DNA of 38,248 nucleotides, taken from NCBI GenBank assembly GCA_025058425.1, contig JANXEG010000006.1, forward strand, positions 1 to 38,248. The letters are read 5' to 3'. A program made the translations under genes and the position numbers. How positions within the stretch are numbered: the stretch's first letter is position 1; each line of letters starts with the position of its first letter. Under the pieces are notes generated by a model. That model saw nothing but the letters and a program-made list of their open reading frames with translations, was not told the DNA's origin and did not search any database. The stretch is from Nitrososphaerales archaeon. GTDB taxonomy: Archaea; Thermoproteota; Nitrososphaeria; Nitrososphaerales; JANXEG01. Positions 7,276 through 18,667 of the stretch are shown here, in pieces.

Positions 7276-7382
7276 CCTTTATTCCTTAAATCAGGCTTTT
7301 TTCTTAAGAATTAAAATTAAAGAAAAGATATGATGGTAAAGATTTTAAACGGTCCTTTCACGATAGATACTTTTGAACACGT

Positions 7383-8159
7383 TTGGTAAGGCTCATCGAT
7401 GCTCACATTCACCTTTCGGATCCCGAATACGAACCTATCTTCGATGTACTTAAACAGATGGTCGATAAAATGGATATCATTCTGATAGCGGTCAGTGAAG
7501 ATCTTGCTACATCTGAAAGGACTTTACAACTTGCAGATCGGTGGGGAGAGAAGGTCATACCGTTCGTAGGGATCCATCCATGGTCGGTAAAAGAAGATCC
7601 CGATCTTGATCTTGATAATTATCGAGACTTCTTGAATAGAGAAAGGGATCGAATAAAAGGTATCGGTGAGATAGGTCTCGATAAAGGTTACGTAGGCGAT
7701 GAAGGCTCTTATCAATTACAGAAACGAGTCTTTAATTCGCTACTAGAAGTAGCAGAAAAGTATAGATGGCCCGTCTCGGTCCACTCGCGCAATTCTCAGA
7801 GTGAAGTGATCGATATACTATCAACGTACAGTCTAAAGAGTGTGTTGCTTCACTGGTTTAGTGGAGGTGTAGAGGATCTGAATAGATCGATCGATCGTGG
7901 CTACTTTATCTCCTTTGGCCCTTCATTAATCTACTCCAAAAAGGCCCAAATATTGGCGAAGAATACACCAAAGGAGCTCATACTGGTGGAAAGTGATGGT
8001 CCCGTGAGGTATAAGGCCTGCTTCGAAGGTAGGATCGGTCTACCTACATTCATTCCCAGTGTGATATTCGCATTAACATCCATATTAAAGATGGAATATG
8101 CAACTATAGCTTCGATGATCTATGAAAATTCAAAAAGGTACCTTTTAGAGGGAATCTGA
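7383..8159 (+). CDS. TatD family metal-dependent hydrolase
   Basis: Amidohydrolase-fold (TIM-barrel) protein of 258 residues, related to TatD nucleases that act on DNA ends or hydrolyse phosphodiesters with divalent metals. The metal-binding motif IDAHIHL is near the N-terminus (residues 5-11). A conserved GEIGLD (glutamate ligand), the HSR motif of strand 5 and a late ESDGP (aspartate ligand) follow in the family order. The start is TTG: no in-frame ATG precedes the metal motif, and the TTG places it at the usual distance from the N-terminus. A TATA-like stretch near 7342-7350 supports a nearly leaderless message. The match is to the archaeal TatD-related branch, and the true substrate is unknown. 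Confidence 0.8.
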   Translation: MVRLIDAHIHLSDPEYEPIFDVLKQMVDKMDIILIAVSEDLATSERTLQLADRWGEKVIPFVGIHPWSVKEDPDLDLDNYRDFLNRERDRIKGIGEIGLDKGYVGDEGSYQLQKRVFNSLLEVAEKYRWPVSVHSRNSQSEVIDILSTYSLKSVLLHWFSGGVEDLNRSIDRGYFISFGPSLIYSKKAQILAKNTPKELILVESDGPVRYKACFEGRIGLPTFIPSVIFALTSILKMEYATIASMIYENSKRYLLEGI

Positions 8160-11809: not shown

Positions 11810-13963
11810 CTAAATGTTGCAGTTTGGACATCCCATGCTAGAAGTCAATATATCGTAATCTTCGAGTGATTTTAAACCCTTCTCGACATCTGACCTTCGC
11901 TCTAAAGTTTCCAATACTTGTACCCTTCTACTCCCATCTCTATATACGGTAATGCCTTTACAACCCAATCTGTACGCTAATAAGAATGCCCGTTCGATAT
12001 CGTAAGGTGTGGCATGATTTGGAAAGTTTACCGTCTTTGAAACTGCACTATGTGTATACTTTTGAAAAGCAGCCTGCATCCTTACATGCCACTCTGGCGA
12101 GATATCGTGGGCAGTTACGAATATTCTTCGAACCTTCTCGGGTATCTCTTCAATATGTTGAATCGAGGTCGTTCGAGCGATCTTTCTTATAATCTGCTCA
12201 TCGTAGAACCCTTCCCTGATCGCGATTTCTTCAAATATCGGGTTGATGACTATCAACTTCTCTCCTAGACTTTCAGCCACATTCCTCACATAAGCCACAG
12301 CATAGAGAGGCTCGATACCTCCTGAACAACCCGCTATCTCACTGATCGTTCCCGTCGGTGCAATAGTGGTCAATGTAGCATTTCTAATCCCTTTAAACCC
12401 ATTCTTCTCCCATTCACTCCCCTTAAAGTTGGGGAATGCTCCTCTTTCTTCAGCCAATTCGACAGACATCTTTACCGCCTCATCGGTAATAAATTTCATA
12501 ACACTCTCTGCAATCCTTAAAGCCTGTGGCGTATCGTACGGTACTCCAAGCTTGATCAGCATATCTGCAAATCCCATGACGCCCAATCCAATCCTTCGAT
12601 TCGCCTTCGTCATCTTTTCGATCTGTGGTATTGGGTATCGATTCGCATCAATTACATTATCCAAAAAGTGCACGGCCCTTCTTACAATCGTCCTCAATCT
12701 ATTCCAATCGATCTCCCCATCTTTCACCATCTTAGAAAGGTTGATACTCCCTAAATTACAAGATTCATAGGGGAGTAATGGTTGCTCCCCACAAGGATTC
12801 GTCGCTTCTATCACCCCAATATGTTTTAAAGGATCGTGTTGATTGATCCTATCGATAAATATTACTCCAGGCTCACCATTCTTCCAAGCCATCGTAATGA
12901 GCAGGTTCCATACGACCCTCGCCTTCAACCTTCCCGCCACCTGCCCGTTTCTTGGGTTGATGAGATCGTATTCTTCATCATTCATCACAGCATCCATGAA
13001 GCGGTCGGTGATCGCTACAGAGATGTTAAAGTTTCTCAACACACCCTCCTTCTCCTTTGCAACGATAAACTCTAATATATCTGGATGGTCCACTCTCAAG
13101 ATTCCCATATTCGCACCCCTCCTCTTACCACCCTGCTTGATCACTTCCGTCGCTGCATCAAATACCCTCATAAAGGAAACTGGGCCGGAGGCTACACCTC
13201 CCGTACTTGCTACAACATCCCCTTTCGGTCTTAAGCGAGAGAAGGAAAAACCGGTACCTCCACCAGATTTGTGAATCAATGCTGTATACTTAACAGCATC
13301 AAAGATTTCTTCCATTGAGTCACCTACAGGTAGGACAAAACAGGCGGATAACTGTCCCAATTCTGTACCAGCGTTCATCAAAGTTGGAGAATTGGGGAGG
13401 AATTCGAAATTCACCATCATTTCATAAAACTCCTCTTCAGTCTTACTTACATCACCACCATAAAGTTCATCGGGTTGGGCTATCGCTTTTGCCACTCTAC
13501 GGAAGAGTTGTCGAGGTGTTTCAATAATATGTCTATTGGCATCTCTCCTTAAGTATCGTGCAGCGAGTATGATTATCGAATTTAAAGGTAGTTTAAGGTC
13601 ATCTTCCACACCTAACAGGGCCTTTGCCCTTCTAATCTCCGCCCTCTTCTCTCTATACAGAATGTAAGCTTTTGCCACCCTTGCATCACCACTCTCTACT
13701 AACACCCTCTCTACGATATCTTGAATCTCTTCCACGGATGGTATTCCTCCACCACTGTACCTACTCTCAAGGATTTCTTCAACCCTCTTCGCTAGATCTT
13801 CAGCCCTGATTTTATCTTCACTACCGACCGCTTTTGCAGCCTTCCATATGGCTTGAGCGATCTTACTTCGATCGTAATCCACGATTCTTCCATCTCGTTT
13901 TCGAACCTTGCTGATCTTCACACTTTGGGCTTTATTCGATTGGCCTTCGAGGGCGATCTCCAT
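11810..13963 (-). CDS. nrdJ: Adenosylcobalamin-dependent (class II) ribonucleotide reductase
   Basis: Makes deoxyribonucleotides using coenzyme B12 and needs no oxygen. The N-terminal ATP-cone (about 18-110, VRKRDGRIVDYDRSKIAQAI) is the allosteric site. The ten-stranded barrel shows the full active site in numbering from a GTG at 13972: redox cysteines C211 (SACFVLP) and C405, thiyl cysteine C394 with N392 and E396 in NPCGEQ, and the APTGTIS..GCSGGIEP segment. The C-terminus ends GCPNCNI, the C715/C718 pair that re-reduces the active site. An ATG three residues in (13963) is an equally good start and is used here (717 residues). The gene follows, on the same strand, the NrdD-like protein at 14159-16258, with a 186-bp spacer holding palindromes. 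Confidence 0.94.
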   Translation of the reverse strand: MEIALEGQSNKAQSVKISKVRKRDGRIVDYDRSKIAQAIWKAAKAVGSEDKIRAEDLAKRVEEILESRYSGGGIPSVEEIQDIVERVLVESGDARVAKAYILYREKRAEIRRAKALLGVEDDLKLPLNSIIILAARYLRRDANRHIIETPRQLFRRVAKAIAQPDELYGGDVSKTEEEFYEMMVNFEFLPNSPTLMNAGTELGQLSACFVLPVGDSMEEIFDAVKYTALIHKSGGGTGFSFSRLRPKGDVVASTGGVASGPVSFMRVFDAATEVIKQGGKRRGANMGILRVDHPDILEFIVAKEKEGVLRNFNISVAITDRFMDAVMNDEEYDLINPRNGQVAGRLKARVVWNLLITMAWKNGEPGVIFIDRINQHDPLKHIGVIEATNPCGEQPLLPYESCNLGSINLSKMVKDGEIDWNRLRTIVRRAVHFLDNVIDANRYPIPQIEKMTKANRRIGLGVMGFADMLIKLGVPYDTPQALRIAESVMKFITDEAVKMSVELAEERGAFPNFKGSEWEKNGFKGIRNATLTTIAPTGTISEIAGCSGGIEPLYAVAYVRNVAESLGEKLIVINPIFEEIAIREGFYDEQIIRKIARTTSIQHIEEIPEKVRRIFVTAHDISPEWHVRMQAAFQKYTHSAVSKTVNFPNHATPYDIERAFLLAYRLGCKGITVYRDGSRRVQVLETLERRSDVEKGLKSLEDYDILTSSMGCPNCNI

Positions 13964-14075
13964 CCCAATCACTATGCAATTATACTTTATTTAATTAAGG
14001 TTGATACATCCGATAGTTAAATATATTTGACAAAATAAAAAACTCAATCGATCCAATATCATTCTATGTGAGATA

Positions 14076-14089
14076 TTTTTGATCAAAAA
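14076..14089. promoter_or_regulatory. Perfect 14-bp palindrome upstream of nrdJ
   Basis: TTTTTGATCAAAAA is a perfect dyad in the spacer between the NrdD-like gene and nrdJ, about 110 nt ahead of the nrdJ start. It could be an operator or part of the terminator of the NrdD-like gene. The sequence alone does not decide. Confidence 0.35.
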
Positions 14090-14104
14090 AATTTGACTTG
14101 AAGG

Positions 14105-14158: not shown

Positions 14159-16258
14159 TCAGAAAGGTAGTTTCAGTAAAGCCGTTGAACCACAACCTTC
14201 ACATCTACCCAATTCTTTCATATTCTTCATACCACAATTTGTACATATTGAAGTCACTCTACCAATCTTAAAGTGGGCTAAATGATTCATACCCCTATGT
14301 AATAACTCTTCGACATTTTCTGATGATAGCTCTTCGAATACATCGATCGATATCGAGAATCCACCATTCAACTTTTTAAAGTATAAATCGAGCCCCTTCA
14401 TCATCTCTTGATCGAACAACTTTGATACTGTAAGTCTAGGTGATTGTGAATATTCTTTCCTCTTCATTCCAGATACAGCCTTTCCGTACCTTTCTGAGTC
14501 GAGTGCAACAAACCTTGCCCCACTTTCATCGACCAGGATCGAAACCCCTGCCCTTTCGCCGATCTTCTCCGCTTTATCGTTAGCCACCTCTATGGCAGTG
14601 TTCAATATCTTCTCCTCCAACTTCCTCTTATCCATAGGTGTCATCGTTTCTTCAGATAAGTTAAGAATAGCTTCATCCAATCCCACCATATTGATGATGA
14701 AGGGCATGGTCATTCGAGAGGTTGTAGTATTGTACTTTAGGGCGGGGAGTAGGTCCTTATCGATGATGTTATTCAGTAATCTTTTTCGTGTAACGAACGC
14801 ATTTAATACAAGTTGTATGAGTAGTGCAAGTTTTGCTCTAAAGTACGTCTCATCATAACTCGACTCGTAGGCAAGCCGAGGAAGGTTTATCGAAAGTGAA
14901 TGAAGTATGATGGTATCGCTAACTTCTTTCGATAGCACTATATCACCTCTTAACCCTGAGTAAGTATGGACGAATTCTGGCTGAGTACTCACCGCCAAAC
15001 TTCCGCCCGCATTGATGATCGATGTAATAAATTCTGATAGAGGTGCTACCGTCGATGGATTGGTAAGTATGGTAATAAGTTTGACTTTAGGTAATGGCAC
15101 TCTATCTATGTAATCCTTGTAAGCTTCGAAGACCCCTTCTAACACTCTGTAGTAAAGTGAATCATCGATCTTTAATTCATCTGTCGGTCGGTCCATCAAC
15201 CGAATCGAAATTATGGGCTTATCATATTCATCATTTGCAACGGATGAAATGAATAAGAAGCTTCTCTTCAATTCCTCCTTCAATTCTTCCTCTTTAATTC
15301 CAGAAGTATGTGTTGCTAAGTAACTTACGAAATTTTCGAATGAGATTTCATTCGATACTTCTCTTGCTAACAATGTAGAGAGTGTTATCCAAGCTGAAAT
15401 CGCTTCTTCGAAACTTTTCGGTTGAGATATGCGTGGCGCGGAGAGTAGCTTATTTCTCAAGCTTATACCATTTGTATGTATATGCGCTAGATCTATCAGT
15501 ACGGTATCTGGCATCAAAGCCCAGCTCCCTACGTTAGAGATGTGTATATCTCCAGAAAGGTGGGCGTCTGCCACATCTCTCGGTATCTGTGTGAGTAGCA
15601 GATATTCGGAGAAGACCGAGCGGGCCGTCTGGGCGAATAAGGATTCGATGGCCAAGGTTGAGTTACTGACCCTATTTATCAATTCCGTAACATCATACAC
15701 TGGCATCCCGAGTCTGGTCAATTTATGCCTATATTCTTCATAGCCATGCTCTATGAGTAAAGCATTCACAAACTCCCTAATCAACGGTGCAGTTAGATAC
15801 ATCGTTTGGAATTTGTGGAGCCTCGCTTCAGCTTCACTGGCGATCTTTTCAGCTAACTCTACAGGCATACCAGCCTCTTTTACTAAAGATTGCAGTATTT
15901 TATCCGGATTGAATTCTTCCATGGTATGGCGTGAAGTTCTGACGTGAAGCTTCCCACTTTCTATAGCAGACCGCTCCTCGATCTGTCGGGTAAAGTTAAG
16001 GATGAGCCTCCCAAGATTTGTAATGGTATATCTCCTCTCCGACCGATTTAATGTAATGAGCATCTGTTTGACCAACTTTCTTAAATGGTAAGCAAACTTC
16101 CCAGACTCCTTCTTCGATTTAAATCCGGAGAGTGTCTTAAGTTCTGAGTAGGTTAAAGGACCTTTCGTGTTCAAAATACGTAATATCTCTAACCTATTTG
16201 GGGATGCAATAACGGAGTAGATCGCTTTAGCCCTCTTAGAAGATGGTTGCATACTCAT
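14159..16258 (-). CDS. Catalytically dead NrdD-like protein with winged-helix and ATP-cone domains (predicted RNR regulator)
   Basis: A 699-residue protein with four parts. Residues about 8-75 form an ArsR-like winged helix (PNRLEILRILNTKGPLTYSELKTLSGF, then KFAYHLRKLVKQMLI). Residues about 100-190 are an ATP-cone (EEFNPDKILQSLVKEAG.P.ELAEKIASE). Residues about 200-660 match the class III reductase barrel, for example IPRDVADAHLSGDIHI, LSINLPRLAYES and TMPFIINMVGL. A C-terminal zinc ribbon follows (C672, C675, C686, C689). The protein has no other cysteine, so the catalytic thiols are gone, and it stops 10 residues after the ribbon, where the glycyl-radical loop would begin. It cannot act as a reductase. 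It sits directly upstream of class II nrdJ, so nucleotide-sensing control of nrdJ is the natural inference. No activase gene (nrdG) is nearby. Confidence 0.8.
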   Translation of the reverse strand: MSMQPSSKRAKAIYSVIASPNRLEILRILNTKGPLTYSELKTLSGFKSKKESGKFAYHLRKLVKQMLITLNRSERRYTITNLGRLILNFTRQIEERSAIESGKLHVRTSRHTMEEFNPDKILQSLVKEAGMPVELAEKIASEAEARLHKFQTMYLTAPLIREFVNALLIEHGYEEYRHKLTRLGMPVYDVTELINRVSNSTLAIESLFAQTARSVFSEYLLLTQIPRDVADAHLSGDIHISNVGSWALMPDTVLIDLAHIHTNGISLRNKLLSAPRISQPKSFEEAISAWITLSTLLAREVSNEISFENFVSYLATHTSGIKEEELKEELKRSFLFISSVANDEYDKPIISIRLMDRPTDELKIDDSLYYRVLEGVFEAYKDYIDRVPLPKVKLITILTNPSTVAPLSEFITSIINAGGSLAVSTQPEFVHTYSGLRGDIVLSKEVSDTIILHSLSINLPRLAYESSYDETYFRAKLALLIQLVLNAFVTRKRLLNNIIDKDLLPALKYNTTTSRMTMPFIINMVGLDEAILNLSEETMTPMDKRKLEEKILNTAIEVANDKAEKIGERAGVSILVDESGARFVALDSERYGKAVSGMKRKEYSQSPRLTVSKLFDQEMMKGLDLYFKKLNGGFSISIDVFEELSSENVEELLHRGMNHLAHFKIGRVTSICTNCGMKNMKELGRCEGCGSTALLKLPF

Positions 16259-16380: not shown

Positions 16381-17037
16381 TCATTCTACTCGTCTACAAA
16401 ATTTATTTATATAATCGAATACTAACCTTCTCGCACCCTCCAATTTCTCTTCATCTATACCTGGAACACCACACACCATAAACAGGACATCTCTAGTCTC
16501 TTCGGTAACCTTTGAAAAATCCGCATCTCTATAAGGATATATGGCAATTAGATTATCTTCATCGGTCACTACTACTTCACAGCCTTTCAAGACCATAGGT
16601 TGATCCATACCTATGCCGAGGAACCTTTCATTCGGGCGTGCAAACCTCATCCTTAAATCCCCTTTCAATTTACTCATATCGAAGGCTGCCAGTGCGATTC
16701 CGGTGTTGATAGAAACTAAATTGTACGTATCTACGACGGTATTGATCTGAGGAATCCCTTTCCCTCCTAAGATCCTTCTGATCAACGCTTCCGCAGCTGG
16801 GCGTATCTTCGTAGGATCTATACCAATCTTCCAAAAGAAATCACGATAAAGTCTGAATATTTTGATATCCTTTAACCCTTCTAACGTATATTCTTCCTTA
16901 ACTCTCTTATACACCTGTTCCTTAAACTCTTCGAGTTGAGGGTTCGATCTCTCCACCTTTAATCCTCTTATAGGCTGAATTAGGACCTTAAGGTCTGGAA
17001 ATTTAGAAATAATATCTTGCTCCAGAATGATTCGCAT
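16381..17037 (-). CDS. Stand-alone B3/4 domain protein (PheRS-beta editing-domain homologue)
   Basis: A 218-residue protein made of the B3/B4 domain that edits mischarged tRNA inside the phenylalanyl-tRNA synthetase beta chain. The core is visible from about residue 70: IDPTKIRPAAEALIRRILGGKGIPQINTVVD.YNL.SI.TGI..AAFD, then LGIGMDQP.VLKG.EVV.TDEDN.IAIYPYRD.D. Free-standing copies are common in archaea and bacteria, and their substrate is unclear. Deacylation of mischarged tRNA in trans is the usual proposal. The gene is divergent from tRNA-Pro, whose 5' end is 140 bp away. It has its own upstream spacer and no operon partner. Confidence 0.75.
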   Translation of the reverse strand: MRIILEQDIISKFPDLKVLIQPIRGLKVERSNPQLEEFKEQVYKRVKEEYTLEGLKDIKIFRLYRDFFWKIGIDPTKIRPAAEALIRRILGGKGIPQINTVVDTYNLVSINTGIALAAFDMSKLKGDLRMRFARPNERFLGIGMDQPMVLKGCEVVVTDEDNLIAIYPYRDADFSKVTEETRDVLFMVCGVPGIDEEKLEGARRLVFDYINKFCRRVE

Positions 17038-17446: not shown

Positions 17447-18667
17447 TTATTCTCCGACGACTTCGTCTTCATCGAGTATTAACCTCATAGTATCGGCATC
17501 TGCTGGCATATATTGTAAGAAATCTTCGGCCGCCCTTCTCGGCTCCTTACTCCTTATAATATATCTACCGACTACGATGATATCTGCACCACTACTTAAA
17601 GCCTCTCTCGAAACTTCAGGAGTAATCCCTCCAGCGACGGCTACCATCTTTACAATCTTTTTAACCTCTGATATATTGCCCCATCTGGTCTCTAATGGCC
17701 TTCCCTCCTCTCTTGCCGTTGCCTCAACATCTACACTTCTATGCAAAAGAACTACATCGGGCTTTATCCTTAAGGAACGAAGTTTAACTATAGGGTCATC
17801 GACATTCATCATATCGAGGATTGAGTAGATACCTTGCTTTTGGGCCTCAAGGATCGCCCTCTCTATAGTTTCATTCGATGCGACTCCTAAGATACATACG
17901 GCATCTGCGGTCGCATCGGCCGCCTCTTTAACCTCAAGCCTTCCAACATCTATCGTTTTAAGATCGGCGATTATAAAAGCGTCCCTTCTTATTTCTCTAA
18001 TCTTCTCAATAACTCCGACACCGTACTTTTTAATCAAGGGTGTACCAGCTTCAAGTAGTATCCTTTCTCTAATCGGAAGCGCATTGATAATATTCGCAGC
18101 CTCTTCGAATGAATCAAGATCTAGAGCGACTTGAAGGTAAGGGGGGTTCCATAACCTCTGGACTCTAAAGCCCATTATCGGGTGAACCGCTCTATCCTTC
18201 TCTTTAAGTACCTTTTCTACGGGTGGGTAATGTGAAAGAGCCCTTCTTAATGCGGTCTTCGTCGCACCATAATTATATTGATAGATCTTTCTAAAGTCCT
18301 TTGCCTGAGGATGGATGAATACCGATGCTATAACTACCCAGTCTTCACATTTATCCCTCGGTATTATCCCCTCTTCAACCGCATCGGCAACGGCCCTCGC
18401 TACGGCCATCTGCGCCGGGCCGAAGATCTTATTCGCATCCTCTAAACTCTTGATCGTCACCTTAGGAACGATCAATGTCGAAGGTTTTGGTGGGAGATTC
18501 GGCCGAATTACCGCTAACAATGGAGTATGGCCCATAGAAATATTGGAGAAGGCATTCGCAAAGGCAATTCCAGCAGGCCCCCTTTTATCACCTATAATGA
18601 GATCTATATGGGCTACCTCATCCCCCGATCCTATCAGAGCCTCCCCAACGTACAATTCGTTAACCAA
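17447..18667 (-). CDS. Fae-Hps fusion: formaldehyde-activating enzyme / 3-hexulose-6-phosphate synthase
   Basis: Bifunctional 406-residue protein. Residues 1 to about 160 are Fae, which condenses formaldehyde with tetrahydromethanopterin: [18 protein letters not shown] with the catalytic histidine (H20), and [15 protein letters not shown] near its end. From about 170 on is Hps ([45 protein letters not shown]), which interconverts hexulose 6-phosphate with ribulose 5-phosphate and formaldehyde. Such fusions are known in methanogens and relatives, where they make pentose phosphate from fructose 6-phosphate while trapping the released formaldehyde. The start is TTG and gives the standard Fae N-terminus. 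No isomerase (Phi) gene is in the window. The C-terminal EDEVVGE tail is acidic. Confidence 0.92.

Follow-up and report, generated by a model that had tools for sequence, protein, structure and literature searches.

A predicted ribonucleotide reductase regulator built from an inactive class III reductase in Nitrososphaerales archaea

What a protein related to class III ribonucleotide reductase (RNR) but carrying a winged helix might do directly upstream of a class II reductase gene is the question raised by the 699-aa ORF at 14159..16258 of the window, the 38,248-nt stretch of archaeal DNA analysed here (all coordinates for this gene, its domains, nrdJ and the putative operators are on the minus strand). 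The window belongs to a 1.28-Mb assembly that is 95% complete. An earlier note, made from the sequence itself, had read the ORF as a dead NrdD turned nucleotide-sensing regulator of the neighbouring nrdJ. This reading is supported overall: neither winged-helix homologues with catalytic residues nor a lack of linkage to reductase genes was found. The protein, called the regulator below for its predicted role, is quite probably a transcription factor that arose from a duplicated class III RNR, senses ATP and dATP, and most likely represses the adjacent reductase gene.

The four-part architecture that had been proposed (ArsR-like winged helix, ATP-cone, NrdD barrel and zinc ribbon) is borne out by the ORF, Pfam and NCBIfam searches, an hhalign comparison with T4 NrdD, and AlphaFold2 models searched with Foldseek. 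The winged helix-turn-helix (wHTH; aa 12-87, 15998..16225) matches DUF7347 (2e-10) and HTH_20 (2.7e-6) above the curated cut-offs (PF24038, 41.2 bits against 27.6; PF12840, 27.7 against 27). It has wHTH secondary structure in both models, and its PDB matches include CzrA, SmtB, NolR and ArsR (E 0.04-0.09). The ATP-cone (aa 105-176, 15731..15946; PF03477, 1.1e-8) has NrdR and RNR ATP-cones as its top PDB matches. Its motif residues deviate from the usual VxKRDG pattern, so its ligand preference may differ from that of the usual cones. When the N-terminal 185 residues were modelled alone, NrdR and RNR ATP-cones came first in Foldseek and CzrA, NolR and SmtB lower; the E-values are all weak, because each match spans about half of the fragment.

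The barrel (aa 204-660, 14279..15649) is recognised by Pfam, by the T4 NrdD profile comparison, by the alignment of regulators with NrdDs and by Foldseek. The Pfam NRDD match is split into two stretches, the better being aa 446-692 (1.4e-30), and scores well above its cut-off, whereas the NCBIfam NrdD equivalog models stay far under theirs (TIGR02487, 104 bits against 326). The homology to NrdD, which the note had wanted checked by structure prediction and profile search, is upheld: the regulator profile covers T4 NrdD residues 1-574 (prob. 99.6, E 2.9e-23), and the 36 best PDB matches to the AlphaFold2 model (mean pLDDT 86.8, 57 homologues) are all class III reductase NrdD. The C-terminal CxxC...CxxC ribbon (aa 672-689, 14192..14245) is, by the alignments and the T4 profile, equivalent to the structural Zn site of NrdD. 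The parallel once drawn between this ribbon and the zinc ribbon of NrdR is thus wrong, and the DNA-binding role would fall to the N-terminal wHTH. No dedicated family model for the regulator was seen.

The regulator is a dead enzyme by sequence comparison. As the note had stated, all four of its cysteines (672, 675, 686, 689) are in the ribbon and the thiyl and redox cysteines are absent. The profile aligns only to T4 NrdD residue 574, and the chain therefore ends before the equivalent of Gly580, with no glycyl loop, again as had been read from the window. The comparison set comprised regulators of the order, class and phylum, active archaeal NrdDs and T4 NrdD. None of the 67 wHTH-bearing proteins has the equivalents of C290 and C79 (T4 numbering) or the RxxGY loop, in contrast to 14 active NrdDs, which show the catalytic cysteines and RxxGY wherever that part of the sequence is available; among the proteins compared, those NrdDs with a glycyl loop all lack the wHTH. 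Among 84 full-length members of the order, no cysteine is conserved apart from the four in the ribbon. The substrate motifs have gone as well: HxHD, a triphosphate/phosphate motif, has become HISN or similar (HISN at aa 239-242 in the window, 15533..15544, as first noticed there), and the NxN flap is lost, whereas active NrdDs retain ENAN and HxH (roles of both motifs from PMC11226230). Two distant regulators, L223 and L224, retain a degraded C-terminal glycyl loop (RVFGK and RVYGK) with the glycine present and the catalytic cysteines absent, which by its sequence is a fossil of the lost function. A local truncation of the window copy is rejected, the loss being common to homologues of the order, class and phylum.

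Members of the regulator family were found in 93 of the 101 genomes sampled from this order (Nitrososphaerales-type archaea, 17 families), and further ones in several families of the class and many of the phylum; loci at the phylum level were chosen for matching, and the distribution covers this phylum only. Named relatives with the regulator among the 80 loci kept from the alignment-based scan are Nitrososphaerota, including Nitrosopumilus, Nitrosotenuis, Nitrosotalea and Gagatemarchaeum. Unlike that scan, a single-protein pattern scan of the genome contigs for homologues gave no match. A quick tree search places the 67 regulators and the 14 NrdDs on either side of a single branch (SH-aLRT 100). 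NrdR itself is essentially absent: its NCBIfam model TIGR00244 matches neither the regulator nor anything in the window's genome, and exceeds its cut-off in one of the 101 genomes of the order. That one true NrdR (G039:C1:10034-10468) lies beside a second nrdJ-like gene (C1:10996-12036), and the assembly has 4% contamination, so the gene may be foreign. Another genome (G114 C1:236192-236480; L285/L389) contains a 184-aa frame that has this winged helix but no reductase barrel. It has a perfect GTCAA-N6-TTGAC at its own start and belongs to the class-level family f19, in which no full-length regulator was found.

The probable target is nrdJ (11810..13972), identified by its ORF, Pfam and NCBIfam matches as a B12-dependent class II RNR with its own ATP-cone. 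The regulator lies immediately upstream on the same strand, as the note had it, with a spacer of 186 nt. This arrangement is conserved: in 84 of the 86 loci of the order whose downstream sequence was long enough to be assessed (16 families), nrdJ comes next, in the same orientation and no more than about 510 nt away, and the two exceptions, L161 and L162, carry shortened regulators. The linked NrdJs are of different types, with an ATP-cone (the window, L079, L124, L149), without one (L072, L075, L084, L096, L118), or of the long PF08471 type (L077, L101). In other families nrdJ again adjoins the regulator (L234), the two genes are convergent (f20, L260-L262), or the regulator is followed by an nrdD whose product has the catalytic cysteines (L238, L242, L249, L253, L259), with nrdG after it in L249. 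For many members at the phylum level, the few kb around the regulator contain no reductase gene. The window's genome holds a second, unlinked nrdJ. In a sister genome (G001) the regulator and the linked nrdJ are both missing; of the two nrdJ genes it has only an orthologue (90% identity) of the unlinked one.

Two features of the linked reductases are of separate interest. The nrdD of L249 has no glycyl loop in its own frame, and a CPVCG...RVTGF segment follows in another frame (7300-7640), which may represent a frameshift or a split glycyl domain. The linked nrdJ frames of L093, L094, L107 and L125 are about 1250-1500 codons, far longer than those of their neighbours, and are consistent with inteins or other in-frame insertions.

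A conserved operator-like repeat was found in spacers between the regulator and nrdJ. An unbiased scan of 47 dereplicated spacers for every 5-mer inverted repeat with a spacing of 0-14 gave GTCAA-N6-TTGAC as the top dyad, found in 18 of them where dinucleotide shuffles predict 1.3. It ranks second among sequences upstream of the regulator and is absent from coding-region controls, where high dyad scores stem from codon conservation. Allowing at most one mismatch, the deep families have 2.84 sites/kb in the spacer, 1.43 upstream of the regulator, 0.26 in other non-ORF DNA and 0.02 in ORFs. Exact matches to the relaxed form GTNAA-N6-TTNAC number 18 in deep spacers (0.35 in shuffled sequence), 10 upstream of deep regulators (0.05) and 8 upstream of ammonia-oxidiser regulators (0.15).

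In the window, the dyad scan and pattern searches place putative operator 1, GTCAA-ATTTTT-TTGAT, at 14082..14097, and putative operator 2, GTCAA-ATATAT-TTAAC, at 14016..14031, 59 nt upstream of the nrdJ start; the latter also draws on the site densities. Their centres are 66 bp apart, and sites paired at 66-77 bp occur in f1, f13 and f4. Of the 15 matches to GTCAAN6TTNAY in the 1.28-Mb genome, two fall within the window spacer; the reversed control has 3. Random placement of 15 sites would put two in the 186-nt spacer in about 2 per million cases, a figure that is illustrative and no test, since the window was part of the data from which the pattern was derived. The other genome matches are mostly inside ORFs, and therefore no wider regulon is claimed. 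No clear site lies upstream of the window regulator gene itself, and unlinked nrdJ genes, including the second nrdJ of this genome, have no good site. The regulator locus accounts for six of the seven perfect palindromes in five f4 genomes (about 7 Mb), and L238, a phylum-level locus with an adjoining active nrdD, has a perfect site upstream of its regulator. In the ammonia oxidisers (f2, f3, f7, f9) the repeat is missing from the regulator-nrdJ spacer, and control of nrdJ may therefore act through the promoter of the regulator or in some other way. A variant is retained upstream of the regulator in several f7 and f2 members, ending in several cases a few nt upstream of a TATA-like TTTAAT; none was found upstream of the regulator in the f9 members tested. 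A weaker operator-like site (L381, G000:C39:7310-7325) lies upstream of a short gene that is followed by an Orc1/Cdc6-like gene.

Taken together, these features suggest that the regulator is probably an autoregulating, (d)ATP-sensing transcription factor of RNR genes that replaces NrdR, a role assigned to it because NrdR is essentially absent. A duplicated NrdD with an ATP-cone would have gained a winged helix at its N-terminus and lost its catalytic cysteines, its substrate motifs and the glycyl loop. In the simplest model, a dimer formed through the barrel would set two winged helices on the inverted repeat GTnAA-N6-TTnAC, with predicted targets between the regulator and nrdJ and, for most families, also ahead of the regulator gene. 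The ATP-cone would respond to the ATP/dATP ratio by altering the oligomeric state, and high dATP would most likely lead to repression of the adjacent reductase gene, which is the job of NrdR in bacteria. Repression is favoured as the sign of control because of the analogy with NrdR, which is a repressor (PMC9110341). The P. copri NrdD exists as both dimers and tetramers in the presence of dATP (PMC11226230), which makes the bridging of two operators by a dATP-driven tetramer an attractive, though speculative, idea. A fuller version, in which the cone reads ATP/dATP, the former allosteric site of the barrel reads dNTP balance, and dATP tetramers loop paired operators and silence an adjacent reductase gene of either class, seems to us rather unlikely.

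The distribution of constraint along the chain bears on other readings of the protein. Mean column homozygosity is 0.79 in the winged helix, 0.70 in the ATP-cone and 0.28-0.38 in the barrel. The near-invariant HTH/recognition-helix stretch GFKSKKESGKFAYHLRKL (aa 45-62, 16073..16126) is invariant except for K47 over 57 members, and likewise over 43. The winged helix and the cone are thus the best conserved parts and the barrel the least, which as a sequence pattern fits a DNA-binding sensor and is the opposite of what an enzyme would show. In some other lineages the regulator has been shortened to 540-620 aa through loss of barrel sequence; members of this size, such as L233, L257, L274 and L281, keep the winged helix and ATP-cone with a shrunken or unrecognisable barrel. 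A truncated or atypical yet catalytic NrdD, or a decaying pseudogene with an incidental HTH, would account for the strong NRDD score and for degraded loops such as RVYGK in some distant members. However, catalytic cysteines occur in no wHTH-bearing member, the ORFs are intact in tens of genera, the wHTH is better conserved than the barrel, and no other NrdD was found in the window's genome. The loss of the cysteines, the intact ORFs and the wHTH conservation already contradict such a reading, which we regard as extremely improbable. A third NRDD match in the genome (C8:776-907) was rejected as a reductase, being a zinc-finger match in a reverse-gyrase-like frame.

The regulator might instead be an NrdJ-binding partner that lends an ATP-cone or scaffold in trans, with DNA binding setting only its own amount. 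The strict pairing with NrdJ, the several partner NrdJs without an ATP-cone, and the ammonia-oxidiser repeat upstream of the regulator only all fit this possibility, but the partners are very different NrdJ types and even NrdD, which is hard to fit to one conserved interface. The repeat of the deep families lies in the nrdJ promoter region, and the barrel is the least conserved part; such a partner is quite doubtful. The same DNA-binding sensor could also activate nrdJ, for example at low dNTPs. The repeat just upstream of TTTAAT in several f7 and f2 members would suit an activator, as would the position of the nearer window site 59 nt from the nrdJ start codon, though archaeal activators and repressors can both act just upstream of a TATA-like element. 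Most ArsR-type proteins are repressors, which argues against activation. NrdR also represses (PMC9110341), and an activator is on balance an unlikely reading.

The regulator resembles several known systems in part. Enzyme-derived regulators such as NrtR (Nudix and wHTH), MocR/GabR and NagC share its design principle, a DNA-binding head with an enzyme fold for sensing. To our knowledge none of them has a ribonucleotide reductase fold or controls RNR genes. The bacterial RNR repressor NrdR (TIGR00244) is likewise an ATP-cone protein tied to reductase genes, and its cones are the first Foldseek matches of the regulator's N-terminal part. NrdR is about 150 aa, with an N-terminal DNA-binding zinc ribbon and then the ATP-cone, whereas the regulator has an ArsR-type wHTH, the ribbon of NrdD and a 450-residue reductase barrel. 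The NrdDs of T4, T. maritima, P. copri and S. thermophilus share the barrel and Zn site in the same order; unlike them, the regulator lacks the thiyl and redox cysteines, HxHD, the NxN flap and the glycyl loop, and has gained the wHTH. With ArsR/SmtB proteins (PF12840, PF01022, DUF7347) it shares the winged-helix fold, including structural matches to CzrA, SmtB and NolR, but its wHTH has no conserved metal-binding cysteine (none is conserved outside the C-terminal ribbon in the 84 full-length members), and the sensor would be the ATP-cone and reductase barrel. The wHTH plus retired-enzyme design and NrdR as an ATP-cone regulator of RNR genes are thus already known; a regulator built from a reductase itself would be a new family of RNR regulators. 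No prior description of the family was found in the literature searched, and RNR relatives with a winged helix or with DNA binding go unmentioned in the RNR family papers PMC9531940 and PMC9669993. The regulator is a candidate for the control of DNA-precursor synthesis in archaea without NrdR and is conserved in abundant ammonia oxidisers. It would also be a clear case of an essential radical enzyme turned into a gene switch that lies next to the genes for its still functional relatives. Through the predicted operator this hypothesis can be tested directly.

On the other side of the regulator the window encodes proteins of other functions. A stand-alone B3/4-domain protein (PheRS-beta-like editing domain) is directly upstream at 16381-17037, and a Fae-Hps fusion, joining a formaldehyde-activating enzyme to a hexulose-phosphate-synthase-type domain, is at 17447-18667.
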